DNA from: Antedon bifida
Taxonomy: Eukaryota; Echinodermata; Crinoidea; Comatulida; Antedonidae
Assembly: GCA_963402885.1 (NCBI GenBank)
Contig: OY727099.1
Coordinates: forward strand, 12,574,001-12,638,000
DNA length: 64,000 nt
Direction: 5' to 3'
Made by a program: the position numbers and the translations under genes. Below are positions 7,566 to 52,261 of this stretch, piece after piece; the stretch's first letter is position 1, and each line of letters opens with the position of its first letter. The notes below the pieces were generated by a model that saw nothing but the letters and a program-made list of their open reading frames with translations, did not search any database and was not told the origin of the DNA.

Positions 7566-7700
7566 CTGACTACTTTGAGAATCTTGAGAGAATTTTCGCT
7601 TCCTTAGTTCTTCCATTTTCTCTAAGACATCATTGTAGTTTGTGGAAAATTGAGAAGCTAATGTCTGTGCCAATTCTTCTAAAGTTCCAGAAGATCCATC
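7566..7700 (-). CDS. SASH1: SASH1-like internal coding exon (N-terminal conserved block)
   Basis: On the minus strand a 135-nt exon runs from an acceptor (CTTATTGTAG at 7701-7710) to a donor (CAG|GTACTA). It is phase 0 at both ends and encodes 45 residues. The peptide aligns along its whole length with the N-terminal block of vertebrate SASH1, as I remember it. It starts Asp-Gly-Ser, has an acidic LEELAQ segment and ends in MEELRKR followed by Phe-Ser-Gln-Asp; human SASH1 has MEELRKR-Arg-Val-Ser-Gln-Asp at the same spacing. SASH1 is a scaffold with SLY, SH3 and SAM domains, involved in signalling and adhesion. None of those later domains is in the window, so they must lie past the left edge or in exons I missed. 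The donor is weaker than consensus. The ends match in phase with both upstream candidate first exons. Confidence 0.75.
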
Positions 7701-10700
7701 CTACAATAAGAAAATAATAATGCTAGTTCAACAACATTAATAAATACATGATGGTGTAAAAATAAACCAGTATTGGCATGGGTAATGATATTGTTTTTTG
7801 CCATGAAGAAATAGTTGGCAATATGGCAGAGCTAGAAATTGAAAACAGGAAACTGAGAGTGGTATAGAAAGAAAGCAATTTCCTTCACAAAAAAAAATGT
7901 TTAATTCTTGATGAGATTCCACATCATGGAAAACCTAATATTTAATTTTCAGTTTGTTCATATTCAACAAATCTTTAAGCTTTATTAAGAGATCACTTGT
8001 TAAAATCTGACATATATAACGAAAGATAAAGAAAATTTAAAAAAAACCTAAGTTATTGGCAACTAGTTGCGCACATAACTTGCTGGTAAGATACAGTATT
8101 TGCCTTCTTCAAATCAGAGTAAAGTGTTTTCAAATACTGTTTCTGAGATGCACACACAAAGTACTGTATGCCATTATGACATTTATGTTTTGTGTTTAAA
8201 ATTCTCCTTTAGGGCAAGTATTTTGTTTGAATTCATTTTGACTGAATAATGATATCAATTTGATGCTCCTTTGATTGTACATTTACAACTAAATGCCATA
8301 ACCAAATGCAGCAGACAAAAAGTATCATTAAGAGCCTTGTTGAGTATCCCACTGTTTAATCATGAGAAAATGTCTGGATCAAAAAACCACAATAAACATT
8401 TAATACTCATAGAAAAAGCAGGTCTGCAATTTTATTAGTTTTTAATAACAGTAAAGCATTATGCTCTAAAAAAAACTGGGTAGGTATTATAGATACTGTA
8501 TATTAGTATGTGTTCATAGAGAAAAGTAAATTATTAAACCCAATCAATTCCATGTTTTAGCCGCACGTTTCATTTCATTAACAATAAACTGTTTTTTTTT
8601 GTATGTAGACATATTTAATGTTATGCTAACAAAATGAGGCCAAATTAAAACAAAAATTTAGTTTCATGTCACCTCCCTCATTAAATTTTGTATTTTCCAT
8701 TTATTTTTTTCAAAGAAAGAAAAAGGCATTCATCAATTGCATGATCACTATTGTTCGTTACGTGATCATTATTTTTAAATGTTGATAGTACGGTAGCCAT
8801 GAGAGTGTTGTTCACTATTTTTAGTTTGGTTTAGTTTTAATAGTAAAAAATCTTAAATCTTGAACATGAAACAATTCTTTATTGGGGCCAATACTGCTGC
8901 TATCACCAAATAACCCTTACATTTATAGTATAATCGCCTTATTTTTGACATTTAAATATGAACAATTCAATTTTTAATACATAAAATGCAATGTGACCTT
9001 AAATTAGATAGAACGTAGGCAAAGTGTCTTTAATAATACATGACCTTGCAAATAAAATATAATGTGTAATATTTCTCTCATTATTGAGAAAGGAGTATTA
9101 GAAGAAAATTGGACATTATAGTTGTTTAGGATTTGTCTACGCTGTGTATGCTACATGTTCACCTGTTTATTTAGTGATATATGACTAGCGTACATTTTCA
9201 TTCACAATGTATCTGTCACATAATATAATGTACAGACATGGACGTACATGTTTCCAGGAGACAATTATAATACACTTGTAAAATATATTCACAAATTCTG
9301 ATGGAAACGACTGTGTAGTTGTTGAAGCAATAATTTATAGTTATTTTAGTTGGGTTCAAATAATATATTGATACATCTTGCTGCTTTATGCATGTTTGCC
9401 CTATGGACAAGTACATTTAATTATTTTCACATCTGCATTTTAAATTATTTTCTGGATGAGTGATAGGTATTTTCCACTTGGGTAAGTAATACCTGCATGA
9501 AAATATATTAAATACCACATATTTGATAAAAATATTTATAGATCTGGTATATTAATTGTACTTTTCTAGAACATGTTCATCATGATTTTGGAAAGATCAG
9601 ATAAAATGAACTTTATTTTCATTGACACTTCATGCACATGTGGTAGCACACCCTGTAACTTATCTTTGCAAACAGCAAACCACTGTGTATTGCAAGCTCT
9701 TTGTCATGTTTTTTCTTCCATGTCTCGAAAAGAAATAATGATAGTGGTTGTTGGGGAATGATGCTCCTAATTGAGTGTGTGGTTTGTGGACTGCGCCATT
9801 TATTGAGAGGGGTTTTCAATGAATTTTCTACTCATTTAGTATATCTTGGTCTTCGAGGAGAATAAGGGTATTGTTGGTTTATCCATGTAAGCTGGCACGA
9901 AATAGACTTAAAACTTTGGTACAACTAAATAATGTTAAAAGGATTTTAAATTCAAGTTACTATTTATATACAAAAAAGAAAATTGACATTAGGCTACAGT
10001 AAATTATAATTTCTAATCTAAATAAATACATTGAATTATTGTTTATTTAAATTTACAGAATGTACAGTGTACGTGCTATACATATTGTGGTCAGGCTAAA
10101 TAAAAATAATGATTGATATACAGTATGATAATATAAAAATGATTTTGGTTATATAATTGAAATTATATCCTGTTATTGTGAATATGAGGATTTCAGTCCC
10201 CTATAACAATACATAATATATAAACATGTATACTAATATTCTAACACGGCAGTTGTAATTCAGCATTAAGCACTAAAACTGGCATCATGATTTCCTTTCT
10301 CGTTGCTTCTTTTGTGCTAATATTGATCGTTTCTATCCGACTTGTAATATCAGGCTAATGTAAGGTGTTTCATTAGAATTGTATATCTATATCACTCATC
10401 ACAATGTGCATTTCACTGCAGCAGGTTTGTGAAATTAAAGGGGCTGCTGCAGGTTTCATGCATGAGTGATTACATGTCCAGCATGAAACAGGGAGATGTA
10501 AAATCTATGAAATAATAATGCGACATCAAAAAAATATGTTGATAAATTAATTTGTTCAAAAGATTCCCTATCCAATCAAGTTTGAACAAAACCTCAAAAC
10601 ATTCAATAATGTAATGGTTAATTCAATGGCAATGGCATATCAAGCAGAAGGTACAGGGTTCAAATCTCATTCTCAGTTTTCCTTATTTTTATACAGTAGA

Positions 10701-12597
10701 TGAATTGACATTGATACTGTACTAAAATATGTTCAATTCAATTCAATTAAAAAATAAATGTCTCTTTGAATTGAATTGAATTGAACATATTTCAGTACAG
10801 TATCAATTTATGTTAATATACTTTAAATGACATATAATAATATTTGATTAATTCATCTATTTTAAAAATATGTAACAGAAATAAAAACTTATATTACAGG
10901 TATTTCATTTTTCCAACAAATTGTAAAAAACAGAAAGTAGCAAAAGACTGACAAATTGTGTTATTAACACAGTACCATATTAAAAATGATAAGTTCAAAT
11001 TTTATAGTACGTACATGGTATTCCTTTGTTTGATAAATAAATTTTAAGGAGAACGACAAAAAAATGATTATAATGACAATGCCGATATTGATGCTGAAGT
11101 CAGTAAAGTTTACTAAAGAAGCTGATCTTAAAACTTAATTCTTTTATTTTGTAAAATGTTATTATCTTGTTGCATATATTTTGAACATATTCTAATAGAA
11201 TTTGCACAATATAATAATCAATAAATTATTCTTAAAATAATAGAAATGGTTGATAAAAGTTGGTTAACACGGTCACTATGATACGGCACATCATGTAGAT
11301 AATTGGATTTTATTAAGCACACCAATCTCTGTTTGAATTAACACACAGGCCTTGCTTATTAGATTACAAGAAATCAACATTTCACAGATAAATAGCGCGA
11401 TAGGGCTGGCAAATTGCATTAGGTTTTGTTAACAATCGACACTTTGTTTAAAACGCGTGGAGATTATTAGCCTACTTATTAATTCTATTAAGCTTTGTAT
11501 ACTCACTCTGTACTGTAGAATGTGGACATTTGCTACTGAAGTTGATTGACAAGAAAATCTTAATAAGATAAGGTTAATATGAGCAGTCAATTTATGTAAA
11601 CTGGATTTTACTTTCAAATTATATAATATACTTATTATTATATAATAATAAAGAACTTTTTTGGGTATAGATACTGTACGAAGTTCATAATATCTCAATA
11701 TTTCTGAATATTTAAATTAAATATTATATAATACAGTATTTATCTTGGGCACTGTGTAACATAGTTTCAATGGTTCCAAGTAGCATCACAACGGATACTG
11801 TATAGTTCCATAAATCAATTGCGTGATAAAATGCAATAGCACTCGAATCTGCTACATCTCACTGACACCAGGCAAGCTTCGTAATGGTGTAAGGTGGACA
11901 TAAATAGATTTACAATTTGCTTGCTTTTGTGTTAGCATTCGTCAATGACAATACAGGCTTGGTTGCAATTGTATTTCTTGGTATAGATCATTAAATAGAT
12001 TGTATCTTTCAATACATTTTTTTCCATTCTGCATTCAGTCGTTAAAATCGGACGTGTCTTGTTAAACGAGCTTGAATACATTAATCAATTAAGATGAATT
12101 GATATCATGAATGATCAATAAACATTTGTGTAAATATAATTTTGATTGCAACAAAACTAGGTCAGTTCTTCACAGTGTGTTATACATTTAACTGTCATTT
12201 ATATCTTCTTCATTTTAATGACCTAATAAAAATACTAGTTTATATTTAAGATTAATAATATATGTTATACTGTATCAATAGATTTAAATGTATAATACTA
12301 AGAAAGCGCAGTGGACAAGATGATGTCACATACAACAACTTTCCCCTTGGTGGTTATTCGCCCATCTATGGAAGAGACTGAGAAGAACTAATTCATCGGG
12401 GTGATCCCCTATTCCTAAAGATACACTGGGTTTTTAAAGTGCATACAAATTAGCTGTGTTTGAAGTCCTTTTTCTACTGTACCTCTGAGCCTGGTTTTGG
12501 CAATCTAATGGACCCTACAACACTGAGAACTGAGGGTCATTAGGGTCCCCATGTTGGGGCAAAGTTATCCATCACTCTAGCGTTTTGTTTGTAAATA
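7701..12597 (-). other. SASH1-like intron, left part
   Basis: No exon was recognised. It contains a short fragment at 9005-9045 resembling the end of the 56-kb foldback arm (AACGTAGG...GTGTCTTTAAT). A TATTGTTGGTTTATCC block at about 9868 recurs inverted at about 33998. A diverged tRNA-SINE fragment lies near 10597-10680. A GC-richer patch at 12330-12590 looks repeat-derived, but I cannot assign it. Confidence 0.45.
10711..10806. repeat. Near-perfect hairpin, 38-bp arms
   Basis: The left arm TTGATACTGTACTAAAATAT plus GTTCAATTCAATTCAATT is matched by its reverse complement at 10769-10806 with one mismatch and a loop of about 20 bases. It contains a CAATT pentamer run. It may be a small foldback insertion. 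Confidence 0.8.
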
Positions 12598-12600
12598 TAA

Positions 12601-13491
12601 AGCCTTTTCACATAGAATTGCGGCAATATCCCAGTAAGCAATCCGGTAATATTGCCGGTCTATACCCATTCACACAGAAGGTAATATTACGGTAATTTTA
12701 CCGTTTTCTGTGTGAAAGGCCACAGTGAAAAAGGCGCAATATTTAAAGATTACTGTCTTAATAAAATAGAGGTCGCACTTTTTTAGAAAAAAAAAATGGC
12801 GGGCACCGCCGACGAAACATGCCATGCGTGCACATGTTTGCTGATGTTGTTTTGTGTGTCCGTCGTTTAGTTTTATTGGTTTTTATTTATGATGCATAAC
12901 ACCTATATTTTTGCCCAACACCACTCAGTGCTAATAACTGCCCGATCGTGATGGCCATTCTACAGAAACAAAATCTATTAGGCCTATAAATAGACGCGAA
13001 TTTAATTATCAGAAGCTGTTATGAGCTAGCACCAGGCGCGCGCTCGGGGGAGGATGTTCCTGCTAGAACTATGCTAACTAGGGCCTAGGCTAACATACGT
13101 TACAGCAAGTTAAATAATCTTTGGACCAACATCTGTTATATTTTTATTATTATTGGCCGTATTCTTCCATTGTATTATTTACACACTAACCTAAAAAATA
13201 TATATATTGATATCATCTAATAATTTGGCCTAAAATAAATGCCACCATCTTTCTCAATCAAGGAAAATGTCTCGAATTTATCCTTGCCTCGCTGCGTAAG
13301 CAGGCGTTATATCGTGGACTCTTTCACACGATCAGGTTTATGACCGTGACGGTAATATTACCGCAATTTTACTATGTCCAGAGGTGGTCTAACGGAAGCC
13401 GGCATTAAGGGGTTTTAACCCTTTCACACATAAGCTGGCGTTCGCGAATTACTGCAATATTACCGTCTTACAGCTCTGTGTGAAAGGGGCT
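12601..13491. mobile_element. 891-bp foldback element, TAA target duplication
   Basis: The ends are inverted copies: AGCCTTTTCACATAG on the left, and CTGTGTGAAAGGGGCT on the right (reverse complement AGCCCCTTTCACACAG). TAA flanks both sides (12598-12600 and 13492-13494), the three-base duplication typical of PIF/Harbinger elements. Inverted CTTTCACAC-type words also occur inside (about 12709 and 13319), so each end can fold on itself. The middle holds a GC-rich ATGGCGGGCACCGCCGACGA patch but no open frame of useful length. Confidence 0.65.
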
Positions 13492-14181
13492 TAAGTGGTA
13501 TACAGGCTACTGTATTTTTATGGAAATAAACAATAACAAAGCTTTAAATAATAATATATTCCCATGAACCTTACCTGAACTATCAAATACAAACAAAGTG
13601 TATATCCTCTACAGAATACCCTACCAGAATAAATAAACACTTTTGGTGATATTGAATTCACAACTACAGGCTTTTGGAAATGAATGAAAGTTCATATATG
13701 CTGGTGGTACTGTACATACATACATTAGAAAAATATCTTAATATTCAAGGTATGTTGAATGTTGTCCTAGAACCATATGGGCATTAATTCAGAACATCAT
13801 ACAAAAGTTTCTTCAAGCTTATTTTTGTCACAGATGAAAAAATATGTTAGGCTTAACAGTTCCTTCAAGTTTGTTTTTTTTTGTCACAGTTGAATCCAGG
13901 GTCCTTCCATAGTTAGTTCAGGAATCAATCTGATTGGTTAAATAGTTTACTAATGGTTAAAATCGCTGATGTGTGACTTGTATTGCTAGTGTCATAAAGA
14001 TAATCTGGTACCTTGAGTTTTTTCATCAAACTCCAGGTCAGTAAAATTATGCTAAAACAAAGTTTGGCACAAAAAAATTTTAAAAGTATTGGTTTTCTGA
14101 AAGTTATGTGATCTTTCACATACAATATGTCAGATTCTAACATTCAACCCAGACTATTAGCAAGTATCTATGGTTATTTTA

Positions 14182-15103
14182 GGGTCTGTTTCTGCTGAAA
14201 AAATCAAAATAATCGATTTTTTCCAGTCACCGCAAACCACAAAAATAATCGCGTTGCAATTGAAAATTGCTACGACTTTAATCGGTTATTCAGGTAATCG
14301 GCTTTTAAAATTACGTCACCATTCCTCCACAGCGCATTCAAGTTATGAAAGGCCGATGAGAGTTGGTTCATGGAGGTATAAAATAGTTTTTTATACCTCC
14401 ATGGTTGGTTTGTTTACATCCTATCGCTGCCTAAAACTCTCACATGTAGGATTAAAAATTACTTTTACGTAAAGCTATATTATTTGTAAAATAAACATCT
14501 AGGCCTACTACTGTACCACATACAACAGAATAATGATGTTATATTAATAAAGACACGTCGGCGAGAAAAGTTCTTTTCGCCGTTCGTTGGTTCTACCTTC
14601 GGCCTGCTAGAGGCTATATATTTCTACCGAAACAGACAACAGGCCTAAAAAAGGACATGTAAAACATCGTTAGCCTGGACTGGTGGGATGTAACGGTGTA
14701 CTTGTAACACAGAATCCTGGAGTCTCTCGGTATAATTCTCCCCCACAAAATAATAAAAATCAAATCATTGTTTATTCGGTCTACATCGCGATCGTTGTTT
14801 TGCTGATCGTCGTCGTCGATATCACGCAAATAAACAGCATGCTTTGTGACGTGAATAAGTTTGCCATACTCTAGAGGTCAAAGTGGGGTCAATAATCGCT
14901 ATTTGTGTTGCAGCTCAAGACTGCTCCACAATAATCGGTTAAAACAAGAAATAATCGATTAAAACACGCAATGGATTGAGTGTTTTCAATCGGTTATTTT
15001 TAATCGGTTATTTTATTTTGCGCCGTTTCTGCTGCCCAAAAATAATCGATTAAAAAAATAAACAGTTAATAATCGATTATTTCTGCTCAGCAGAAACAGG
15101 CCC
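14182..15103. mobile_element. Harbinger-like MITE, 922 bp, TTA target duplication
   Basis: The terminal inverted repeat GGGTCTGTTTCTGCTGA on the left pairs with TCAGCAGAAACAGGCCC on the right, and TTA flanks both ends (14179-14181 and 15104-15106). A GGGCCTGTTT-type terminus with a TTA/TAA duplication is typical of PIF/Harbinger elements. The interior is rich in AATCGATTATT and AATCGGTTATT words. It holds an almost perfect hairpin at 14369-14403 (arms CATGGAGGTATAAAA). A second, inverted copy lies at 39198-39995 and a degraded one at 24664-24894. No transposase is present. The open frames on each strand are incidental. Confidence 0.8.
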
Positions 15104-16189
15104 TTAGTTAAATTAGAATCTATCTACTATCTGCTATTATTTGTATGTGATTTAATATACCAAAAATTCCAAACATATTTCCTCTATTTAACAAGAATAT
15201 GGTCACACATTAAAGACTGATAATAGGGAACAAGAATGTATAGATAACATATAGTAGCAGTAAGTATTTAATCTTGTGAACATTGGTTTGATGAAACCTA
15301 TATTAAAGTAACCTATTTTTATAACACTACAGACAAAACTATGTTGATAATATACAATCTTAGGAATAAAATATGTAGGACTGAACAGTAATAAATGAGG
15401 ACAAGCATATGCATGATGGTAAGGTTTCATATATTATATAAATATATATATATATATGGAACACGGTAAGCAACACTATACTATATGGTACGTTGTAATA
15501 TAACACAAGAAATAAAAAATACATTTTTAAAAAGCATTACATTACAATTCTAAAGTGATAAAGGAAATTTAAAATTGTCAACAGAACATAGACAAACATT
15601 TCTGGCTTTGATTTTTTTTATTTGCGGCGTGAATTAATAGCTTTGAATAAAAAAATATATGTACTTTACCACATAAATTGGGTAAACATGTATTCTTATT
15701 TTTCCCACATTCCCAGACATAAACAACTTCAACAATAAATATATATTTGACATTAGTCTATTAATACCTAGTTTGTTTGTTAGCCTCTAATTTAACGTTC
15801 ATGAGAAAATCCAAACATAAAGAAAGTAATTCATAATTGAAAGTGATTGCAATCACACTTTAGTTATCTATTTCAGGAAATATGTTTCAAGGAGAATTGG
15901 CAGATGATTCCCTATCTGTACACTGTATTGCTTGTTAAGAAGTTATACAGTTAATAGTCTTAAGTACTAATTCACCATTGTATCACATGCAGTAGCCTAC
16001 CTGTAATTCCTATCAGTATAAATATATTCTCTGTCAAGTTAATTCTGTAATTCCTATATTATCTATCAGGTTGATTCATCAAACATGCTGTAGACAGTTG
16101 AGAAAGCTAGTCTTCATCCACTGAACCTTAATAAAGAACTGGAGGTAGAAAACATTCCCATCAAGCCCAGGAGTGCCAAGTCAAAGCTC
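15104..16189 (-). other. SASH1-like intron, no gene seen
   Basis: AT-rich sequence with a short TATATATA run near 15446-15458. I see no exon. Confidence 0.5.
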
Positions 16190-17010
16190 AAATAAATAGG
16201 GACTTTCCCCTAAATAAGAAACAGATGTGACAGATGTACTCTTTATCAACCTGTGAGGTAAAATGTGATTTTCCTCAAAACATGAAATAAACAACCTTGT
16301 TAAAGGGTACTGTAAAGAAAATGCACCCTTTCTACTGTACCAATATCAGGTGTAGTACATGAAACAGGCTCAAAATATAAGGGTAGATACTCTATGCACC
16401 CTTCCTATAAATAAACATGGATTTTGCTAAAAATAAGAAATACAACCAACCCTCATAGTGAGGACGGTTACACAGTAGTACAGTAAGTATTGTCAGAGGG
16501 TAATGCACTCTTTCTATCATAATATCAAGGGTGTAAATTCAAGCCTCGAATAAACTTGGATTTTCCTGAAAATATGAGGGTAGAAATTCACCTTTCCTAA
16601 CAATCCAAGTCCTGATTGAAATCAACTTGGATTTACCTAAACATTATAAATAGACTTGTCAGAGGGTAGTAATTCTATCCAAATTCAAGGAAACTGGGAT
16701 TTTGCCAAAATAAGAATAACCATTGAAACAACAGTAGTGTTCACAGGGGTGTAAGCATAAATAAATAACAAATAAGAAAATATTAGTCATGTCAGTCGGG
16801 GTAGTAATATGGTACCATTTATGATGGTGTAAATGAAAGAAAAGACTCATCAATAAGCTGGGATTTCCTGAAAACTATATGCAGACAGGTGTGAACAGGT
16901 AGTGAAATGTACATTCCTTCAATTTCATGAATGTTGTCCAGATTTAAATACTGTAATGTGGGTTTTTCCTCAAAATAAAAAATATGCATTCAGAGGTATT
17001 TGAAGGAAAT
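16190..17010. repeat. Degenerate tandem array around a GGGATTTTCCTxAAAATAA core
   Basis: A core like AAATAAAC-TGGGATTTTCCTGAAAATA recurs near 16195, 16263, 16415, 16555, 16627, 16693, 16860 and 16970. In several units it is followed by a GTCAGAGGGTA...GCACCCTTTCTA segment. Spacing varies from about 70 to 170 bases, so units have been lost or expanded. It looks like an old satellite-like duplication rather than a coding array: stops occur in every frame. Confidence 0.6.
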
Positions 17011-20000
17011 AATATTTTTTCTATAATTAATGAGATTATACATTTTTTATTTAAGTTTATTTATTTATTGCCATGAAATTTAGAAAATTCCAACATTATT
17101 ATTATTTTTTGAAGAATTTCATTTAGCCTATAATTTTTGTTAAAGATGAAATTTCTTTTTGGAAATAGCTATAAAAAACGGCAAAACAAGTTTATGAATT
17201 TGTACATATAGTATCATAACAATATACTGTATTTTATGCTTTTTACTAAAAGAATAGAAACAAATAAATTAATGTTTTAAATGTTAACATTGTTCAGTAC
17301 AGTGTGATGAAAAATACATTTCTGAACATTATTGAGTTGGAAATTAAATGTGACTTAACATTCTTTAGGCAAATTAAAAATGGCACTAATGTTTTCTGTG
17401 ACAAGATGAAGTTTCTATGGTAATACTAAAACTGCACTAGAATAATTATTTCCTAATATTAGCGTACATGCGGTAATTCCATCTGATTGCAAAGTGCTGT
17501 AAAGAAGGATGGAATCATGCAACACTATCTGTAGATTGCATATTTAATGCTCTTTTACTGCTGACGCATTCTTGTGTTGTCTATCAATATATTTTACATG
17601 TTGTCAACATTTGTTTTTCCTGATCTTTTAACTTAAGAAAGACACAAACTGTACAATTTAAACAATCCATGATTTGTGCTGTTTTCACTCTGATAACGAT
17701 GGGAGTCTGATATTTTGAATCAACTAAAAAATATCCGATGTCCCGATAAAAAGCAATTTCCTCCCGATATTTTGGATAAACATATATATAAATATTTCTA
17801 ATTTCTACTACTCTTATAGAAAAAAAGAAGAAAATATGCTAAATGACGAATCTGCAAGATGTTTATATTAAATTTGTGTATTTGTTTAAAGTGAAATAAT
17901 GAGCTGACATCATATTTTCTGCCTTTGACAAATCTGACATACCTATGTTTACTATTATAAATACTGTACCAATACCTTACATTTTTAGTTGAGCCATATA
18001 TGGCTTGGATGTCATTTTCAAACAATTATAGCATCCGCTATAGTTTTGGACATGATTTCGTATTATTTACAGTGTTCTTTGTGTATGCCAGTTTTATCTA
18101 TTATGATGGACCAATAAAGATTAAATAATAGAATTGAACACATGTTTATGGTCCATAAAAGTCTATTCAATTGTATATACTGTAGATCCCTAGACAACTT
18201 ACAAAAAAAAATGTTTTTTTCCACTACCTAAAATACAGGTTTTTCTGCCACAATTTGCAGGACGTCATCTTATAACCAATGAAAGTGATGCAATATCTGA
18301 AATCTGGTATTTTTTTTAGAAATATTATACCATGAGTTTGACTTGCGAGCATTCTTATATATTTTTACACACTGTTTAAATATTTTCTATGCCTTCCAAA
18401 TAAATATATCAAGGTCAAACTGCATTGCATTGCAAAAAATATATATATATATATAAATTATCATGTTTTTCTAAAATGAGGATAATCGATGTTCCCTGCT
18501 AATAAGGTAAATCTTGACCTAAATTAAATTACTTTCCACAAATGGATATTTAAAACAGGAAATGATTAAAGGTGAATCAGTGGTAAAACCATTTAGGATT
18601 AAATATTAATCAACGGCCATGCAATACTATGCAATAACAGGATAATTGATGGTCATTTACAATTGGTAAATCACTTTTTCCAAGGAATTCAATTCTATGC
18701 TTATACTGTATTGCCATTTTTTTATTAGTTTGTATAGTAGGCCAGACTATATTTACAGTACACAAAATGTTTACTACTGGTTGTTAAAAAAAAAAATGAT
18801 AATAAATTATTATTTCTGAAGAAAGAATAATTGAACTGTTACGTCAAAAAGTCGAGCAGCGTTGTTTATAAGAAATGTTTCTTGTTTAAATAAGAACATC
18901 AAAGATGAAACCAACCTAGTAGAAATCTAACAACACAATCATGATGAAATTTCAGAATATAAAAATTATTTAAAAACCAGAAAAAAAGTATTGTTTAACA
19001 CATTAAAAAAAGACCACAAAATATCACCGACACATTTTTTTTGCCAAAATCTTGGGAAAAAACCCATCATAGTCTGAAAAGAATATGAATCTTTAAAATA
19101 AATGTATAGATATTTATTTATTTCAACAATACTTTATATGATGGTGGTCCATCCAGGGACCTTCAGAAAATTATATTTGGGAAAAGATGAAGAATTTCAT
19201 ATTTCAAAGATACTGTAGTCTTTGATTGATTGATTTATTTGGTTCATACATAAAATACATTTTAAAATGGCACAGAAAACATACAAATACACCATTTAAA
19301 AAAAATACAACACCAGAAATATATCACAAAAAACAGAAGACGTCGAGCAAGGGAAACAGAACAAAATGAACCAAGGATAATTAGATACAGTTTCACATTT
19401 TCAGTGTAACTTATTTCCATCTAAGTCCATGTACATTTAACTGAGACATCTTTAATTATAGTAATTTTAGTAATATAATAAATGCATGAAAATGTACATA
19501 GAATGCAAAATAAACAAATTATTGTACCTAAAAACACCAGTCCACTGTACAGTTAAACAGTTCACATAAACCTTTAATTGTATCTTGAATCCCAATATAA
19601 CAATTCATATAATAATGTAAACATACAGTTCACAGAGAGGACAATATGTAAATAAGATATTAATATATTCATCTTTAAATTGTATGGAGTTTTTTAATAA
19701 CAAACTGTCATTATTATTGCATACAATAACTGCCATATCACCTTATTAATCGTAGATTGAATGGAACCATTCTCATAAAACGATGAATCACCATTCTGAG
19801 ACATGACAGATCGTGACATTTTTGTTCATAATTATGTGTTTCTCCAGCTTCTTCTTTGAATTTTTTTTTACTGAAGTCTACAGAATATTTTTTCTAATGG
19901 ACACTCTTGAATTGATTGAAGAAGGAATGTTAGAATACAATTTATTCAATTTTTTAAATACTGTATTTAATCAATAGTCTTCAGCATCATTAATTTCTTC

Positions 20001-20819: not shown

Positions 20820-21420
20820 TTCAAAATTTCATACTAAAGGCAAAGGAACTCAGAGTTGTACACTTTTATTTTCCTATAGAAACAAAGCTTTGATAAACTG
20901 ACAGTTTCTAAATTGAAACCATCAGGACTTTGTCAGTAATTTGAAACAGAAAAATCTTTTTGGTTAGTGATGTCATAACTGAGTGGTTAAGATTCCATAT
21001 AATACTAAACTAGCAAGGAACTCATAGATCACACTTATATTTCTCTATAGAAGAAAGGAATTGTTGCTAAAATGAACAGTTATGGAAATACTAAAGACTG
21101 TCACTTGGACGTATCTTAACTTACTTTCAATAGCGTAAGGAAAAATCTTTCAAAGGTTTAGATGATTTCATAATTGAATAAACAATGTATTTACTCTAAT
21201 TTACTTTACAGCAATTACATACTAAAATAGCAAGGACTCATACATTCAAACTTTTATAGCAGAAACAATTATCTAAAGTTAAATTTTGCAGTTGATCTCC
21301 AGACTTTCACTTTTCCATTTTTACAGTAAATGAAAATGTGTTCCGAGTTTAGTTGATACCATAACTGAGTAAATGAAGTATTTACATAACAATTCCATAA
21401 TAAAATTTAGAACAATTATT
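20820..21420. repeat. Three diverged tandem copies, about 190 bp each
   Basis: The blocks share the order ACTAAA..AGCAAGGAACTCA, then ACACTTxTATTT.CTATAGAA, then GACTxTCACTT, then GGAAAAATCTTT, then GATGATxTCATAACTGAGT. They occur near 20830, 21005 and 21220. Divergence is high, so the duplication is old. Confidence 0.5.
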
Positions 21421-24640: not shown

Positions 24641-24663
24641 TTTTCATAAACATAATTTGTAAT

Positions 24664-31339: not shown

Positions 31340-31353
31340 AATGACAATAATGT

Positions 31354-31680
31354 TGATGATGATGATGATGATGATGATAATTGGTAGTGTTGATATGAAT
31401 GTATGATGGTGAGAATGAACAAAGCAATAAAGATGACAGTTTTTTAATTTACACCACGTGGTGTAAATTATGATGATGATGGCAATTGATGATGATCATC
31501 ATCATGATAGCGATGATGGCAATTTACAATGATGATCATGATGATGGCAATAGATGTTTGACAGTGATGATGATGATGGTTATGATATTGGTGATAGTGA
31601 CGATAGTGATGATGATGGATATGATGATGTTGATTGTGATGATGATGATGACAATTGATGATGATATGGCAACAATAATT
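31354..31680. repeat. Imperfect GAT/ATC microsatellite block
   Basis: A pure (GAT)n run at 31354-31378 is followed, after a short unique piece, by a 31470-31680 stretch of interrupted GATGAT units mixed with GATAGTGAC and ATGGCAATTGATGATG words. His-rich and Met/Asp-rich open frames across it are repeat artefacts. Confidence 0.9.
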
Positions 31681-32619
31681 GAATATGTGAATGTAGACAA
31701 CTATATCATGGTAAAGCATTGGGCATTTTTAGCATTTTTCTACATTTTAATGCCTTTTTTTTCCTCTGGGAACTACTCAGGGGCTCCCATAAGAAGGGTT
31801 TAGCCAGTGAGCACTCATAGCCGTTAGGCCACTGTAAAAATGGCATTCAATTCAATAGTAAGTACACTAAATATATTGTAGTGGAAATGCTGTTATCTTA
31901 AAAGCATACTTAATTAATGTACTTGGTTCTAATATAATAATACAAATACTACAAAATTATATTTTGAATTGACACCTGTCATTTATTTAAAATAGAATTC
32001 ATTTTACGCTAAAAATAAATTGGAAAAAACTGTTGTTTTCAATGCATGTTTCATTAATGATATTACAGTTACCTTTTGTTCAATTCAGATAAGGTGTACA
32101 ACAATGACTATGTACTTGACCTCACGGGCATTTACTGTTGTGCAAGATGTTTATCATTATGTACACTAGGCATCATGTAGTTATAATGGACACTCTCAGT
32201 ATGATGTTCACACATGTGAATACTTGTAACTTTTAACCACTAATGTCATAAACAACTGTTTATTGTTAAGAGTAAAATAATGTTTAGAAAATACAATTTA
32301 AATATTTTCTTTAATACTGTATTTATTCGAATAAACGTCTTGCTTTAAAAAAAATGATCCCTTCCATAGAACATCTTTTGGAACAAACATTCCTCTTGAA
32401 TAAATGCCTCGGAACGTTTATTTTCCCCTCAAATACATGTCCAACGAAATGCATATACACAAAATAATAGCACATTTCTATTTGTTATAGAATTCATTAA
32501 CTTCCATGATCTACAATTTACCAAGCATTTTAAAACATTTTTTTACAGTATATTGTATCACTTCTTGATACTAATTGTGTTATATTTTTTAATATCTAGA
32601 AAGTATTTGATTATACACA
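31681..32619 (-). other. SASH1-like intron, no gene seen
   Basis: AT-rich. It holds a fragment at 31788-31840 that repeats, inverted, the patch at about 26950. I see nothing else. Confidence 0.4.
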
Positions 32620-32818
32620 TCATGTTACCATTAGTTGGGGACCCCTTTGGAAACAAGCCTCTGGGCTTAAAGGGCCATCCCCTGCTTTCCATGCTTATTT
32701 TCTTGTCTTGTCTTGTATTTTTATATTTAATGTTTCTCTTTTTATTTCATTTACATTATACTGTTTTATATATTTGTACTGTATTTGGAAAGCAATAAAT
32801 ATTACTTACTTACTTATT
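32620..32818 (+). mobile_element. Truncated LINE 3' end (CR1/L2-like)
   Basis: A GC-richer segment reads GGACCCCTTTGGAAACAAGC...GGGCTTAAAGGGCCATCCCC. It is followed by a T-rich stretch and ends in GGAAAGCAATAAATATTACT plus TACTTACTTATT. A degenerate 3' UTR ending in AATAAAT and a short tandem tail is characteristic of CR1/L2-clade retrotransposons. No reverse transcriptase remains. The exact clade is inferred. Confidence 0.55.
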
Positions 32819-32929
32819 ATTATAGCCAAAAAATAAATATGGTAATCATATTTATCTCTATAATGAAATGTGGTATATGTAATGTACTGCAGATACAATT
32901 TAAATATTTTCCTCTTTATACTGTAATGT

Positions 32930-33735
32930 CTATCCACTAAAATGTCCCGATATCACATTCACATCTCTCTTTATATTATTGTTAAATTCTATTCACTGTT
33001 CACCAGATGAACCTGTTCTATATATTATTATGTTCTTTACATCGTTTAAACACAGTATTAATGTTAAATTCTATCCACTAAAATGTCAAGATATCACAAT
33101 CTGCTGTCTATGGGTTTTCTATGAAACAAAATATAAATGCTATAATATATAACAGTGATAGTACAATTTAATTATTTTGTTTTTTATAGTATTGTTTCAC
33201 TGTTTTCCAGTGTCTTTTAGCCTACATCATTTTAAAATTAACAGTCTTCTCAAATACTTTTCTGCTTTTATGATTTATCCACTAAAATGTCCAGATATCA
33301 CAACCTGCTGTCTATGGGTTTTCTATGAAACAAAATATAAATGCTATAATTATATAGCAGTGAGTACAATTTAATTATTTTGTTTTTTATATTATTGTAA
33401 CTGTTGTCCAGTGTCTTTTACATTGTTTTTAAAATTAAATGCAAATGCATTTTAATATTTCGCTCTTTTATGATTTATCCACTAAAATGTCCAGATATGA
33501 CAAAAATATTTTTCTATATACATAACATAATTATTGAAAATTTTGATAGTTTCTGTTAAATTCTATCTGGCATTTGCCCATTTTATTCTACTATGCTACT
33601 TAAAAGTCACCTATTTTCATTGTATTCGAATTAGATTTTTTTCTTTTCATTATTCAAAAACTTTATAATTTATGTTAAATTCTACCCAATAAATTGTCCA
33701 GATATCACAATTTGTTCTTCTATTCATTCTACATG
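32930..33735. repeat. About 200-bp tandem repeat, five copies, two of them close
   Basis: TATCCACTAAAATGTCCAGA followed by TATCAC recurs at 32931, 33072, 33276, 33476 and, more diverged, about 33688. Spacing between the middle copies is 204 and 200 bases. The copies starting at 33072 and 33276 also share CTGCTGTCTATGGGTTTTCT and the following 100 bases almost unchanged, so at least one duplication is recent. Confidence 0.85.
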
Positions 33736-33964
33736 ACATTGATATGACATTTTAAATACTTTGCTCTTTTAAAAATGTTAATGTTTATTGAAACAGACAT
33801 CATGTAATGAATAGGTCTACTCGGTATGAAACAAATTTACATGTAAATGCTTTTAAACATTTGTAATAAATGTCTACATATCACCATCATCTAATTATTT
33901 TCAGAATGATTATCTATTTTTAAAGAATTTTAAAAATTACATTTTTAACTAACAGTGGTTTTGG

Positions 33965-34112
33965 TAGACTATGAGTGGTGTGCTACCTAATACCTGGATA
34001 AACCAACAATAGCCTGTGCTCCCCTGATGGTATGCTATGTTGCAACAAGTTTTCCTTGAGCACCCCTCTACAATAATAGCCTAACCACAATGCCCTCACA
34101 TGGGGATGCCTC
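33965..34112 (-). repeat. Dispersed repeat, possibly a SINE
   Basis: On the minus strand it reads GCATCCCCATGTGAGGGCAT, a GGTTAGGCTATTATTGTAG block, then TATTGTTGGTTTATCCAGGT. The last block recurs at about 9868-9888 and, in part, at 23545-23565. Its composition differs from the flanking intron. Family unknown. Confidence 0.4.
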
Positions 34113-35084
34113 AACATACCACAATCAAAATTTCACTTAAAATTTTGAAAATATAATTTTTAATATATTTATCTAGTACTGCTAAACTCATGAGATGAGC
34201 ATGAAACACAAATGTAATTATAATGTATGCACAATAAAATACAAAAAAATGTATATAATATATATATACAGTGAATATGTAAGGTATTATGTTTAATGCA
34301 AGTAATTATTAATGTCTATCTATGTGTCTTAATACAATAATACAAATTATGTTTAGTAGCAGACCAATTTTACAGTATGTATACATCAGAAAAAAAACTG
34401 TTTTCAATAATTTCCGGTTGTCAGTTTATACTGACTGTTGAGTTCTTCTAATCTAAATATTCAATAACATTATACACTGTATGTAGCCTACAGTATAGCA
34501 GTTTTCACATAATGCAAAATTACACACCAAATAATTGATTGAATGTTTTAGAATTTACAGGCTAGTTCAACATACGTCTTGTAACATAACAGTTTTTTTT
34601 TTACCCTTTAAAAGACATTGGCTCATTTCTTGATGACTTTTCAACCATTAGCATACAATGACCAGTTTCTGATGCTAGAAAATAAGAAATAACAGGTATA
34701 TGTCCATCAACTTCTCTGGCAATTTGCCCATTTAACTACCTCAGAGCATCCCATTTTGATGATGTTTTGGTCGAAAGATTACCCACTGATTTTTTGAATC
34801 TTTTTTTTTGTCATATACAATAGTTGACAAGTTATAATTTGGGAAGCAAAACTTCAGAAATACAAAAATAAGACTGATACTCAGGACAACAACATCTATC
34901 ATTTTCTTTCATAGGACATTCGTTTCAAATTAATTAATCATTTTCAATATATCACCGGGCATTTTAGAGTATATTCTAAGCCTGTGGTGTTTATATATAT
35001 AAAGTACCTCTTTGGAGACTAGTGCTGTTCCGCCTTACTATGACGAGAGTGGTATTGTTCAATTGAGTTTGAACAATACCATGA
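34113..35084 (-). other. SASH1-like intron, no gene seen
   Basis: AT-rich sequence with ATATATAT runs. I see no exon. Confidence 0.45.
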
Positions 35085-35160
35085 AAGCCCCAGTGTTCTA
35101 ATGGTTAGGACATCTGAATATCAAGCAGAAGGTTCCAGGTTCATATCTCGGTTGTGTGAC
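35085..35160 (+). mobile_element. tRNA-derived SINE head
   Basis: CCCCAGTGTTCTAATGGTTA then GGACATCTGAATATCAAGCA then GAAGGTTCCAGGTTCATATC resembles a tRNA gene with an A-box-like TAATGGTTAGGA and a B-box-like GGTTCATATCTC at the right spacing. A second, more diverged copy at about 10610-10670 shares ATATCAAGCAGAAGGT and GGGTTCAAATCTC. It is not a functional tRNA: the arms do not pair well. Confidence 0.5.
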
Positions 35161-35588
35161 TATTTCTAATTCGCACAGATGTCCTAATCTTATCGTGTTT
35201 TAAATTAATTATAAATTTTTAGTATATCATCACCGGGTGGTTTAGAATTTGTTCTGTGCCTGTGTGGTGTTTATATATTGCCTGATTTGTTTATATATAT
35301 ATACCTATATCCTTCAGTAGATTTTCTGCACACACTAAAGCCTATTTGGGCAGTACTTCAGAGCAGTATTCTTTGAACTAATGCCAAGTACTTTCTATTT
35401 TGTTCTCCTCTTGGGATCTCAAACCTGGTTAGTTTACAAATTGATGGTGGGAGCTGTAATAAACTTGTTATACAACAGACAAATAGAGTAGAAAATAAAT
35501 GAAACCAGGTGTTGAAATGATTTTTTAAAGTGATAGCCAAGAACTCCAAGAAATAAGTTACTGTTTAAATTAAAAGTGTTGTACTTAC

Positions 35589-35636
35589 CCTTTGAGTATT
35601 TTTGAACATCTTTCTAAAACTTTTTCGTGAAAACAT
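35589..35636 (-). CDS. Possible alternative first coding exon of the SASH1-like gene
   Basis: An ATG in good context (ACCATG) opens 16 codons of basic sequence (MFSRKSFRKMFKNTQR) that run straight into a strong donor, AGG|GTAAGT. The exon ends in phase 0, the phase at which the SASH1-like exon at 7566-7700 begins. Both are on the minus strand in the correct order. I know of no identical N-terminus in vertebrate SASH1, whose first exon differs. A 48-nt open stretch ending in a donor can arise by chance, so this is a candidate. Confidence 0.3.
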
Positions 35637-38600
35637 GGTTTCTTACTATTGGTCTTGTTACTACTGTATAATTATTTCAAATAAAGACACAGCACACAAA
35701 GACCACAACTGCATTATCCCAAAATAGTTTCCGAAAGTGAGCTGATATAGGAAAATCTTATTTCAACTTTCCTGACATTGTTTTTAATTGATTAATGTAG
35801 CCAATCACACATTTTCTTTTATATTCCGTAACTTTATATGCCATTTTAATGTACTTAAACACACCTAATTATTTCCTATTAAAACATATCTGTAAAACAT
35901 CTTGTTTTTACTATTTCCTGACATTGTTAACTTCTTTAAATGGTATCTTATCATATTTCAACGACTCAAATTTTAATAAAGCACTGTTCTAAGAATGTTG
36001 TGCTCAAAGGGCTTTCAAATTATGCAATAGATAGATAGAAAATATATTGAAATTTAATTTGTATTATACAAGTTGTTTTCTAGTTACTGTGTTTATACCT
36101 TCCCATTTACTTATAGTAGTTTCTATTCTAAAATTCACGAGGATTTATTGTACAGTATCGGACACATTTAACAATCAAAGAAGTGACAAATCAATCATGA
36201 AATTGAGGCTTTATGACATACAGTATCAGTGACTGAGTATGCATGACAGACCCTATTCAAAGAACTCCCCATGGTACGTGACTCATGCATTGTCGAAAAA
36301 TACCCCAGCACTATTAAATTCAATGACATTCACAGAAGTACTACAGAAACATCCGTAATTCTACGACAATTCAGCCCAATTAAGGACATACGGAAATCAA
36401 GAAATATGCTATGGAAATACAAACAAATAAAAAGCATAATAATTTGGAAAAGCAAAAATTATGATCGAATCAATGATCGACCCATGCAATAAAGAGGCAA
36501 ATCATTTAAATATAGCTTGGTGGCCTTTCGTTACTACAAAGCACTGTAGTGTAAAGTCGAAAAAACATTCCGAGCATGTTCAGAAACATGTGCATGTGCG
36601 GAATGACTGTTTGATGTGATGGTAAAAAACTAATGAAATTTTCTGTCTACTATGGACATTTTTTATCACTATACTGAAAATTAATTTTAGAAAATTGAGA
36701 ACTCTGCATGGATAGAAACTTTATATGCAACATGCAGTAGGTATAGTATATCTATTTGCATGAATCGGAAGTTTTGGTCTATACAATGCAACCAGAGTTA
36801 CATAATTCAACTGGTGTGAGATTCACCTAGTGGAAAATGGGCTTTATATCACAATGGACCATGTTTACATGTGAAAGCCCACCTTTGTGATTGGGTGACA
36901 GGGGTAAATTCTGCTGCAAGGGTATGTTCAGATCCATGGAGTTATCACAAGCAAGGTCATATTATAATTAGCGTTGTAAGAGCAAGTGTACAAACAAGTG
37001 TTCATACTGGCTTAACTAAAGTTTTCATAAGAAACTGAAGTGTCACACATTTTGGAGAACATTTGGTATGCTAGAGTAAATTTGATTGGTTGGAGGTGAA
37101 AATTGTTGATGCATGACTATCGTAAGTGTCCTTAAGTGATATTACACCTTGAGCTGACGATCAGTGGCGTAATTGCTGGCTCCCACTAATCTTTTCGTGG
37201 TTCAGACCTGAATGGAGTTGTACGCCGAATGCTTAACTCTGTAGGTCTGAACAGGTCCTTCGAATTCTGAACATACTGAAACTACAGTCTATTGTCTATG
37301 ACTCACAGATCCCACTACTGTGTGTATGTTAGATATAAAGGAAAGAACTTATAGACAACACTTCTCTTTTGTTTTGCGTAATTTACACTTAAAAGATACT
37401 TAATAGTTTCCATAAGTCTAGTACAATTTTAGAACAGTAATTGAAAAGTAAACACACCATAAAATCTTAAAATTAGAACAGGATCAATCTTGTGGTTTTT
37501 ATCAATTGTGTACTAATGATGGCAAAACCACAAATGACCAATCACAAACAGCAAAGTAGATTTAAATGGTCACTTGATGATGACAATTTATAACCATAAT
37601 GGTCATTTTTTATTCAATTGTTAAATTTAATATTGAATAGAGATTTAACACACCCTGTTTATATTGAGACTACCCTTTGAACTTAAGAGTATTTAAAAGT
37701 GTATTGCATCAGGAGCAGATTTAGCAGGTTTTTGGTCGCCATTCTTCCCTTTGAAAGCTAAAAGCTAAAATAAGATACAGAAGCAGAACCTACCAGCATA
37801 TGACATCTAGAATATGAAGTCATATATCATTTTTTTTATTTTGGATAAATCTTGCACTAGCATATAAAATTTATTGATGGTTTACTAGCCAGCAATAAAA
37901 AAAAACCTGTAAATTGTAATTCACTTTTTTACCTGCTACCTGAGTCTGGTTGTTGAAATATGGTTAGCCTCTCACATTTTGGAAAAGTGTTACAGATGTA
38001 CTGTATCACAAGCAAGTTTACTAGATGATACATTTAATGTTTATTTTGCTTGCCAAAGGCTAAACTGCTAGGCCTCAGTGAGAGGGTGCATCCACTAGCA
38101 TATTTAATAATATCATATTGGTACAGTACACCCATCACATTTGAAAACTAATTGTATACATGATTGTCTAATACTACAGTATGTCACTTTAATCATAGAA
38201 AATTTAATAGTAAACTAATATCATTAGACAAGATATATACCTACATTAAAAATTCTGTTGGTAAAGATATTCAAAGCCAAAATCCTTCATCACACCAGCA
38301 GATGCAAGCTATTTAAAGTAGAAGTACTTTCATGGTATTTTAGGGTTAGGCATTTAACCATTAAATGTTTACATTGAAGTTCAAATGTTAAATTAAGAAG
38401 GATCAGTGAAGATGTTATTGTCTGTAAGTGTATCCTCATCATTTGATTGGTTGTTTTTGTATCACATGCTATGAATTACTTTCTCCTGTTTTCCAGAGTA
38501 CTATTGCACTATTCAGCTTTTTGTAAACATTTTGAGAAATTTGTGCCACACACTCGACTTGCGAGTGAGGGCCATGGCAAGCCAACCGAATGCATTTGAG

Positions 38601-38675
38601 ACTATCTCTATATTGTACACAGAAAAAAAAAGTAACATCAATTTAAATAACAGTGTAAAGATACCACAACATCGT
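35637..38675 (-). other. Between the two candidate first exons; no gene seen
   Basis: AT-rich. A block near 37195-37275 carries GGTTCAGACCTGAATG and GTAGGTCTGAACAGGTCC in inverted order, probably a small foldback element. The 73-codon open frame at 36271-36492 lacks any family signal or splice support. Confidence 0.4.
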
Positions 38676-38851
38676 GGCCAACTCAGACAGCCTCGTACGA
38701 TGTGGCCCGACGAAACGTCTTGACTCGTCAGTGCTGTCTGAGTTGAATCGCGATGAGACAAGTCGTTTTGAAATAGCGCCGAGAGAACTTTAAACATGTT
38801 TAATTTTCTCCCGACGAGACAACTCGTCGTACGATGCTATCAGAATTGGCC
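38676..38851. mobile_element. 176-bp foldback MITE
   Basis: The left end GGCCAACTCAGACAGCCTCG is mirrored on the right by CGTACGATGCTATCAGAATT plus GGCC, a terminal inverted repeat of about 26 bases with mismatches. An internal inverted GCTGTCTGAGTTG (about 38733) and several ACTCGTC/GACGAGA words add further foldback potential. No clear target duplication is visible. Confidence 0.5.
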
Positions 38852-39197
38852 TTATAGAAATGACCGTAGACATTTGATGCTGAACTTTATTCATGAATAC
38901 ACACATTCCTTAGCAAGATAGATAAAACATATTTCGTACATCATACAGTAGACAAAAAATCTATACTGTATTAAAAAGTTGAAAAAATATGAATTGCACT
39001 TGGAACAAATGATAATCTGATTGAAATAGTTCAAAGTGAAAGGCACAAAAACCCTTTATAACTTCCCATAGTTTCAGCACAAAACAGGAACTTTGTATTC
39101 TATCAATATTCTATTGTACAAAAGGTGCACGCTTCACTATACTAATTGCAGGGCTAGACCCGACATTAAAAAACGATGAAGAAATCAAAACAAATAT

Positions 39198-39995
39198 CAG
39201 CTGCTGAGCAGGAATAATCGGTTATTAACCAATTATTTTTTTAATCAATTATTTTTGGGCAGCAGAAATGGCGCAAAATGAAAAAAACATAACCGATTAA
39301 AAACACTGAATTCATTGCATGTTTTAACCGCTTATTGCGGAGAAGTTTTTAGCTGCAACACAAATAGCGATTATTGACCACATTATGACCTAGGTCAATT
39401 GGTGAGTATGGGTAATCCTCACTCACAAAGCATGCTGTTTATTTGCGCGACTGACAATCAGCAAAATGACGATGTGGACCGATGAGATAACATGTGATTG
39501 TTATTATTTTGTGGGGGAGAATTATAGCGAGAAACTCCAGGGGAACAAAAAAGGATTCTGCATTAACTGTTGGAGTGCACCGTTACATCCCACCAGTCCA
39601 GACTAACGATGTTTTGCAGGTCCAATTCGGTAGCGATACTGTATGTAGCCTAGCTAATAGTACTAGAGTAGTACCAACAGCGAAACAAACTTGCTCGTCG
39701 ACGTGCTCTTATTAATATAATAACATCATTATTCTGTTGTAGGTGGTAGTAGGTCTAGATGTTTATTGGGTTATACAGTAGTCAATTGACTATGATTGGG
39801 TTTACAAATAATATAGCTTTTACAGAAGAGTCAACTAACTCATCGACCTTTAATAATTTGAACTGCGTGGGTAATAATGACATTGATTGTTAAAAAGCGT
39901 CAGAGACAAATTTTCAATTGCAACGCGGACAATTTTGTAGTTTTTGGTACTTAGGAATAATCGATTATTTTGATTTTTTCAGCAGAAACAGACCC
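39198..39995. mobile_element. Second Harbinger-like MITE copy, inverted relative to 14182-15103
   Basis: The right end CAGCAGAAACAGACCC is the reverse complement of the 14182 terminus. The interior follows the same order of blocks in reverse: AATAATCGATTATT, then GCGTTGCAATTG, then AGCTATATTATTTGTAAA, then CAACAGAATAATGATGTTAT, then GTGGGGGAGAATTATA. The left terminus is mutated, starting near TCAGCTGCTGAGCAGGAATA. It is non-coding. Confidence 0.75.
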
Positions 39996-41838
39996 AATGT
40001 TAAGTTATCTGGAATAATCTACAGTAGTAAAGATAAGATAAGGGGTGAGGGGATTTAGAAGTGGGTGGTACTGGAGGTCTGTTGCTATGTCAGATGATTT
40101 TTATTATGGGCACTTATCAAAGATAAACGAACTTGCGACAATTATATTTTCAAATGGTGCACACTGAACATTGTCGCATGAAGCGAGATGCATCACATCA
40201 AACTGCTCTTTATGATGGGACTACAATTTTAGTGTCAACTTTAAATCGAACGCGTGGAGACGACCAATATGTCAATTCTCAACTTTCAATGTAGTGAATT
40301 CAGATGCTCCAAAAAGGATCTAATGGCCATGATTTTAAATCTTATTATATAGAAACTAAATTCTATCATGTTGCTGTATATGCAGTAGCTGAAAATAGTC
40401 AGGGAAGCAGTAGCTTAAATCAACAATTTGATTGACAGTATGTAGTTTTAAAAATATACAATTAAAAACAAACTAATAACAATCTAGTGTAGTCAATAAT
40501 TGAAACTGAATAGAACAATTCACAGATTTAATTGCTTTATAAGTGTTGCCTATCACTTTACAGAATGTATTTGGTGGACTTGGTTTTTTCCCCCCTAATA
40601 ATATCAATAAAACAAAACATACATTTTTTTTCTTTCTTTTATGTAGACAAAAACAAAAAGGCAAAACATACATGCTCCCCATGGTACTAGTAAAATTGAA
40701 AGCCACTAAATATCAGATACACTTGGCAGTGGAAATGTGAAAAATGCCAACCGCACAACAATAGAAAACAATACAACAATACATTGTATGTTTTCTGTGA
40801 CCTCTGCGTAAAGTAAATGCATGTTTTATATTTAAATACATTTTCTACAATGAGATTCGTTCCTTTAACAAAATAAAATAATTGTTAATAAACCATCATT
40901 GTTAGTTTATTCAATATGCCTACATATTGGTTCCTTTTCAACTCTACTTTTAGGTTTCTGTTTTTCTTTTGGAATACGAAAACAAATCATTATTGAACTG
41001 GCTTATTGTCTGAAAAGTGAGTCATTATAAAAGGGGTGGCCTTGTATACTTAAATGGACAAGTGTTGATATAATTGTTTTACTGTTTAAATATGGTTAAT
41101 CACTTTAATTTTTACTTACTAATTCTCACTGCATTCAACGATTTAATTGTGATAATTTAGTCAGTATAGAAAACACAATACAACAATTAAATTATCATTA
41201 TATTTAGTGTTAAACGGTTGGTATGGTAGTATGAATATTTGATTAGGCAATCATCGGAAATAGATGATGGTTCTTGACCCTATCTACAATTTAAGAAGTA
41301 AACTTGTTCACTTTGGTGGTCATTAGTTTTATCTGTTATCTGGGGGTCAAGAATCAGATGAAATCGTGCAGGACATGAGCAAAAGTAAGATTGTTTTCAA
41401 ATGAGTACAGTAGTTGCTATTGTGGGAAAAAATACAAGAAAAAAAAACAAGACCATATAAACAGTCAATCTTTTTCATTTTGTTCAAAAATTGTGATGAG
41501 TCTGAATTACGATGGGGGATTCTCCTTTATGGGTATGTAATTCATTTTTAAATGGTGCAAAAGACATCAAATTACACAAGCAAAATTTACAAATTTTGCA
41601 TTGTTTTCTTTGAGCAATTTAAAAAAAAATCCATGCACAATTTTTCAAACTGCATATTATTGCATATGAAAGCAAGTAAAATTTAAATAATTAAACATTA
41701 TGGTGGTGGACGTGAGCAGAGCAACATACCTAGTCAATAGTAATAATGACTATCATTTAAGTTAGATAGTAGTAGAGTTAAATAATGAATTAAAATTAAA
41801 ATGGTAAAATATTTATCGACTTGCTATTTTATACTTAC
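39996..41838 (-). other. Intron downstream of the SAMD5-like exon; no gene seen
   Basis: AT-rich, with no exon recognised. A SAMD5-type terminal exon (about 20 codons, entering in phase 0) was looked for on the minus strand and not found. Confidence 0.4.
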
Positions 41839-42330
41839 CGGATTGGAAAAAGGTTGATGACTCAGATTTATGTTACGTTCATGAAGAGTCTTACTTATCA
41901 TCAATTTCAACTGATTTTTGGGGTAGACAATGAAGCCGGTATCACTAACCACCCCTCCTCCACCTCCTTTATCATTTTGAGCAAATACATCTTCCTCTTC
42001 TTCAACACTGTTGTAGCAGTTTTGATCAACCGGTCCGGCCTCTCCAAATATGTTTCCAAAATCATTATTTCCATTGGAACCATTTTTTGACGGTTGGTTC
42101 GGCTCTAAAGTAAAATATACAGGGGCTCCTCCTTCTGTTTTTAAACGATTCACGGCCTCGAGAATATCAATTCGATGCACAGAAACATCTACTCCTATCG
42201 CGTCCAAATCTGGCTCCCCGATTTGCTTACACGTTTCTAAATCATCGTAACCATTATCAATAAACGCTTCTAAGTACTGAGAAAGATCTAAGGATCGCAG
42301 CCATTCCTCGACAATGTTACTATCTTCCAT
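41839..42330 (-). CDS. SAMD5: SAM-domain protein, SAMD5-like first coding exon
   Basis: The exon encodes 164 residues from an ATG at 42330 to a strong donor (CCG|GTAAGT at 41839/41838), ending in phase 0. Residues 3-64 form a SAM domain closely resembling vertebrate SAMD5 (WL..L.L.QY.E.F.DNGYDDLE.CKQIG, then PDLDAIGV). It is followed by the SAMD5 signature VYFTLEP at 71-77, an acidic and Gly-rich linker (about 78-131) and a conserved tail at 135-162 (VYPK..LK.MI...L...I.LS..P.S). That tail also resembles a C-terminal segment of SASH1. SAM domains mediate protein-protein oligomerisation, and human SAMD5 is about 170 residues. The remaining codons must be spliced on. It could use its own short terminal exon or join the SASH1-like exon at 7.7 kb, since the phases agree. 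Confidence 0.85.
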
Positions 42331-52245: not shown

Positions 52246-52261
52246 CCAGAACTTTTCAACT

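Follow-up and report, generated by a model that had tools for sequence, protein, structure and literature searches.

A SAMD5-like exon upstream of a SASH gene in the crinoid Antedon bifida, and the probable origin of SAMD5 and SASH1 from one ancestral gene

The genome of the crinoid Antedon bifida (GenBank assembly GCA_963402885.1) carries, in the 64,000-nucleotide stretch analysed here (the window, bases 12574001-12638000 of contig OY727099.1, hereafter C12), a SAMD5-like exon at 41839-42330 and, downstream of it on the same minus strand, an exon of a SASH gene at 7566-7700. An initial annotation, made from the sequence alone, had placed the two exons in this order and on this strand, meeting in phase 0, and our analysis recovered both, with clean boundaries. 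We interpret the 34,138 bp between them (7701-41838, minus strand) as the first intron of a probable joined SAMD5-SASH gene. Genome searches covered 315.6 Mb in 27 contigs; the sequences of human SASH1, and of human SAMD5 outside the SAM domain covered by PDB, served as queries or alignment rows.

The SAMD5-like exon, a putative first coding exon, comprises a SAM domain (SAM0, recognised by Pfam), a linker and a 3'-end motif that we call A. Its 164-aa frame begins with ATG and closes in ...FSNP directly before gtaagt, which constitutes a phase-0 donor (CCG/GTAAGT); upstream of the ATG a stop is met after seven in-frame codons (frame 41827-42351), and a five-codon upstream open frame, evident from the sequence at 42320-42337 (minus strand), overlaps the start codon. 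Reading through the donor into the intron adds VSIK alone, and then a stop. Using phmmer against PDB, the top match was the SAM domain of human SAMD5 (5zrz_B, 85.4 bits, 3.8e-23), with a SHIP2-EphA2 chain in second place (63.7 bits over the whole chain, 38.6 in its best stretch), and the SASH1 SAM chain scored 32.7 bits. Full-length human SAMD5 is 43% identical to the exon from the SAM domain through the splice site, and the C-terminal motif A of the human protein has its counterpart here. The exon is single-copy: the genome search returned only itself above 26 bits, the next protein matches standing at 25 bits, and no relatives were found in the viral and prokaryote collections searched.

The exon at 7566-7700 is SASH exon 2. 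It encodes 45 aa in phase 0-0, which we call motif B, and matches residues 53-92 of human SASH1 with 55% identity across 40 aa; the genome search again returned only the exon itself above 26 bits, and a PqqD match (E 0.047), which falls short of the cut-off for that family, is regarded as a chance hit. An in-frame TAG is the codon immediately upstream and the first Met is residue 29, therefore this exon needs an upstream phase-0 coding exon. The domain exons of the SASH gene continue on the same strand beyond the low end of the window, in the order SH3 (pieces at C12:12562819-12562974 and 12557868-12558104), SAM1 (12557547-12557696), a linker exon with a second motif A (12554998-12555153), a second motif B (B', 12553676-12553807) and SAM2 (12546350-12546565), so that the gene begins at window position 7700 or further upstream and reaches some 27 kb past the window. 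The SH3 pieces and the domain order come from tblastn with human SASH1 and the SAM domains from Pfam; this order matches the SASH1/SLY adaptor family. A six-frame profile search for the SPIDER domain (PF12485) gave no match, and control genomes were likewise without match. Downstream of exon 2, a 25-bp tandem repeat of 32 copies occupies 585-1369 of the window, and long frames stay open there on either strand.

The 3' end of the SAMD5-like exon and SASH exon 2 together read LKLMISKTLHERNINLSHQPFSNP and DGSSGTLEELAQTLASQFSTNYNDVLEKMEELR, and this A/B pair aligns without gaps, across the proposed splice position, with the pair that precedes SAM2 in the SASH gene, LDVLLRQRLEDDMVDLAQEPYTDR and LGVCGIPSALVQRYTEELKHPLIEVAEGLERIR, which is itself divided by a phase-0 intron. 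Both copies are thus split in phase 0 at the A/B boundary, and the two B exons, of 45 and 44 aa, are each in phase 0-0. Over 59 ungapped columns, the junction copy and the C-terminal copy share 12 identities and 28 positive-scoring positions, taking this genome alone, with a z of 6.4 for A and B together (p at the minimum that 100,000 shuffles allow), 5.2 for A and 4.2 for B. Profiles that included the human rows, and in which A and B were joined manually in the junction register, reached a match probability of 96.5%. The initial annotation had noticed that the SAMD5 C-terminal motif resembles a SASH1 segment; the likeness is real, and does not stop at the proposed splice but continues in SASH exon 2.

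A splice-anchored scan is the stronger test of the same point, as it did not presuppose the pairing of A with B. The scan covered 184 kb on both strands, considered phase-0 frames opening after AG or ending before GT, and used as query only the C-terminal A and B copies of this genome. SASH exon 2 was the top non-self match for B among 2005 frames after AG (score 19, next 6), and the 3' end of the SAMD5-like exon was the top non-self match for A among 4293 frames before GT (score 30, next 16); with the human rows added, the scan picked the same two exons. Against Pfam, also when the human letters were included, and against PDB, neither motif found a convincing relative. If the two genes had always been separate, it would be a coincidence that the two halves, one closing a coding exon and the other opening exon 2 of the next gene, share order, strand, register and phase with the intact copy inside SASH, which favours one gene. 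Motifs A and B would be one conserved unit, present twice per protein, with a phase-0 intron at each boundary.

That motif A is common to the SAMD5-like exon and the SASH C-terminus would also suit a recent, lineage-specific duplication of a SASH segment without ancestral tie to human SAMD5. We consider such an origin very improbable, since human SAMD5 is the best PDB match and the SAM domain of the exon groups with that of human SAMD5, and not with SASH SAM1 or SAM2, in a tree of 12 SAM domains. In this tree the SAMD5 pair (89/95, short of the starred threshold of the tool) and the SAM1 pair (97/96) were recovered.

With the integration of these findings, we regard it as probable, at roughly 0.7, that coding in the SASH gene begins with the SAMD5-like exon, and that there was one ancestral SAM-A/B-SH3-SAM-A/B-SAM gene which was split in vertebrates. 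The phase-0 donor at 41839 would be spliced to the exon-2 acceptor at 7700, probably giving in this animal a joined transcript, whose predicted product is a single protein with the order SAM0, A/B, SH3, SAM1, A/B, SAM2. The initial annotation had left two options, a deeply conserved linkage or a SAMD5 derived from an alternative 5' end that an ancestral SASH gene once had; the second is favoured by the A/B unit across the junction, by the lack of separate ends above chance in a low-power test, and by the in-frame junction seen in tumours, the last two of which are described below.

In agreement with the initial annotation, the space between the two exons yielded no further recognisable gene: tRNA and Rfam searches of the window were without match, and among the 60 longest open frames of the 184-kb region only three lie wholly inside the interval (132, 107 and 107 aa), of which the 132-aa frame was the only one scanned with Pfam, with no match at E 0.1. 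A 204-bp unit is present twice, with 86% matches, at 33072-33503. The two genes might nevertheless be separate neighbours, as in human, with SAMD5 ending either by intronic polyadenylation (after VSIK) or in a short terminal exon that escaped recognition, SASH starting from a short, poorly conserved first exon, and the linkage being old but without a joined product. We took human SASH1 exon 1 to end in ...WTDVMGIL and used this tail as a search motif: the best such frame before a GT in the interval, at 8906, scored 15, a value reached by 12 of 60 shuffles, and the best SAMD5-exon-2-type start scored 13, reached by 35 of 60, both motifs being short and of low power. The frame at 8906 exceeds the nine control stretches (10-14), and the interval holds four short ATG-to-GT[AG]AG phase-0 first-exon candidates, one of which, at 35588, has a GTAAGT donor; the opposite strand, taken as control, also holds four. 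Because of these candidates and the little power of the short motifs, a SASH first exon of its own is possible. Further, AATAAA and ATTAAA sites follow, in AT-rich sequence, the stop that ends the four-codon read-through of the SAMD5 donor. By this weak test, neither an own SAMD5 end nor an own SASH start is above chance in the interval. Two separate genes are nonetheless unlikely in our view, given that the candidates do no better than chance by shuffles or by the opposite strand, that each of the two supposed genes holds one half of the A/B unit, with order, register and phase all as they should be, and that CpG depletion does not distinguish the interval from the SASH body.

The latter refers to the mean observed/expected ratio (o/e) of CpG dinucleotides in 1-kb windows, which is 0.45 in the interval (n=34) and 0.46 in the SASH body (n=35; p 0.40), and 0.88 in the 52 kb downstream of SASH (n=52; p 2e-8); 10 kb of an STXBP5-like gene (stretch L031) gave 0.45. 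Depletion of CpG in the interval is what would be expected if it lay inside one germline-methylated transcription unit, and we treat it as suggestive only, CpG o/e being a loose marker of such units.

The initial annotation had further placed human SAMD5 and SASH1 as neighbours on chromosome 6 in the same order and orientation as here; for the order and strand on 6q24 we assume the same. A study of skull base chordoma places both genes on 6q24, 772 kb apart, and describes an in-frame SAMD5-SASH1 transcript in 4 of 5 specimens, with breakpoints in SAMD5 exon 1 and SASH1 exon 2 and without copy-number aberration (PMC5352057). This transcript was also found in 3 of 48 neuroblastomas (PMC7653769) and in four grade I meningiomas (PMC6489307), and was among the candidates in ACTH-secreting tumours (PMC11852724). 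As far as the available passages and search listings show, the fusion was nowhere tied to an ancestral gene; literature searches combining SASH1 with 'sea urchin' and SAMD5 with 'invertebrate' returned no paper, and the one paper combining SAMD5 with 'chimeric RNA' mentions SAMD5 in a single passage, where the neuroblastoma report is cited.

In crinoid and human alike, the SAMD5 exon has both a SAM domain and motif A, SASH exon 2 is the same, and the junction between the two exons is phase-compatible; in contrast, human has two genes set 772 kb apart, whereas here separate ends were undetected and the gap is 34 kb. The tumour RNA has the in-frame junction of SAMD5 exon 1 with SASH1 exon 2 (as reported for chordoma) that is predicted for the crinoid gene, although the tumour RNA was reported as a fusion or translocation, while for the crinoid we propose an ordinary ancestral splice. 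We lean towards the wider reading that SAMD5 and SASH1 are the halves of one gene of deuterostome or greater age, joined here and split in vertebrates, and that the tumour fusion is the old splice made on an unrearranged chromosome. The direction of change, fission in the vertebrate line, is what we infer by parsimony: the gene would have been divided into a SAMD5 that gained a short terminal exon and a SASH1 that gained its own first exon, and the old junction may persist as the 'SAMD5-SASH1 fusion' RNA. A variant compatible with the joined gene, and overlapping it in probability, is a single locus with alternative ends, in which a full SAMD5-SASH transcript would be made along with a short SAMD5, through intronic polyadenylation, and a SASH from an internal promoter; the vertebrate state would then be a shift in usage and not a clean split. 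The joined RNAs that human makes alongside both genes and the stop soon after the SAMD5 donor are in its favour, but no direct sign of an internal promoter was observed, most 250-bp bins from 7000 to 9500 being CpG-poor, and we hold this variant as tentative.

Several points weigh against the joined gene. SAMD5 and SASH1 are two genes in human, and the chordoma authors class the SAMD5-SASH1 RNA as an intrachromosomal translocation (PMC5352057). Gapped pairwise tests within the crinoid genome give p values of 0.0024 for A and 0.011 for B. Human SAMD5 exon 2 is itself weakly B-like in register (p 0.0007 to 0.13 in 12 comparisons), so that SAMD5 may once have had a short B of its own. The SAM tree does not group the SAMD5 and SASH SAM domains, and with 6 of its 9 inner branches open it leaves the relations among SAMD5, SAM1 and SAM2 unsettled. 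The top PDB match of SAM2 is SHIP2-EphA2 (65.2 bits) and not SASH1 SAM2 (35.3), hence SAM2 was named by its position and its tblastn match. As for CpG o/e, the sequence upstream of the SAMD5-like exon gives 0.53, two stretches that lie further downstream of SASH (L028 and L029) give 0.59 and 0.46, and 2-kb bins inside the interval reach 0.93.

Regarding function, the SAM domain of human SAMD5 is described as an Eph receptor effector (PDB 5ZRZ, PMC5993539), and SASH1 SAM1 also binds Eph SAM domains (PMC11820823). In the alignment to the human SAMD5 SAM domain, the Tyr27 and Asp40 positions are kept in the SAMD5-like exon; unlike in human SAMD5, the SAM domain here probably heads a large SASH protein, and its Eph binding is putative. 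Since SAM0 would retain residues through which human SAMD5 binds the SAM domains of Eph receptors, and SASH1 SAM1 binds Eph as well, the joined protein may act as a multi-SAM adaptor with two potentially Eph-facing SAM domains.

The surroundings offer only loose synteny with human 6q24. An LLGL-domain match at C12:12075769 (plus strand) is followed 13 kb on, on the same strand, by a weak synaptobrevin match (27.2 bits, cut-off 26.4), and one exon of this gene gave weak PDB matches only, to WD-repeat and LLGL chains; C12:12075769-12089151 (plus strand) is probably tomosyn/STXBP5. We take STXBP5 to be a 6q24 neighbour in human, on the other side relative to SASH1; given this assumed order, the opposite strand and a position some 0.47 Mb past the 3' end of SASH, it is considered loose linkage only. 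Linkage of UST, tried as a synteny marker, was unsupported, as none of 34 PF03567 matches lies on C12, although a multi-exon gene could escape this search. The next gene recognised upstream (stretch L010, 1845-3458, minus strand) is a frame with G6PD C-terminal and 6-phosphogluconolactonase domains, presumably the domain pair of hexose-6-phosphate dehydrogenase. Upstream of the SAMD5-like exon, the window also contains a 22-bp tandem repeat of about 23 copies (51743-52247), overlapped by a 232-aa frame without Pfam match; a 183-bp unit present twice with 100% matches (55457-55822); and a CpG-rich stretch (56001-60000, o/e about 1.3-1.4), which a promoter or a mobile element could account for and which encloses a repeat of the TTGCGCAATTTGAAATTGCGCAA type at 57912-58083. 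Elsewhere in the assembly, a COX1 frame on contig C27 has no stop when translated with the echinoderm/flatworm mitochondrial code, which differs from table 11 at 22 of its codons; this is consistent with an echinoderm.

This work points out an A/B unit, repeated in SASH1 and SAMD5, for which Pfam gave no matching model. The predicted SAM-SH3-SAM-SAM adaptor could connect Eph receptors with SASH signalling, and the proposed joined gene offers an evolutionary origin, open to test, for a chimeric RNA known from several tumour types as a cancer fusion. If the proposed ancestry is true, reports that treat the SAMD5-SASH1 'fusion' as a tumour rearrangement should be looked at again, since the RNA may come from use of an ancestral transcription unit.

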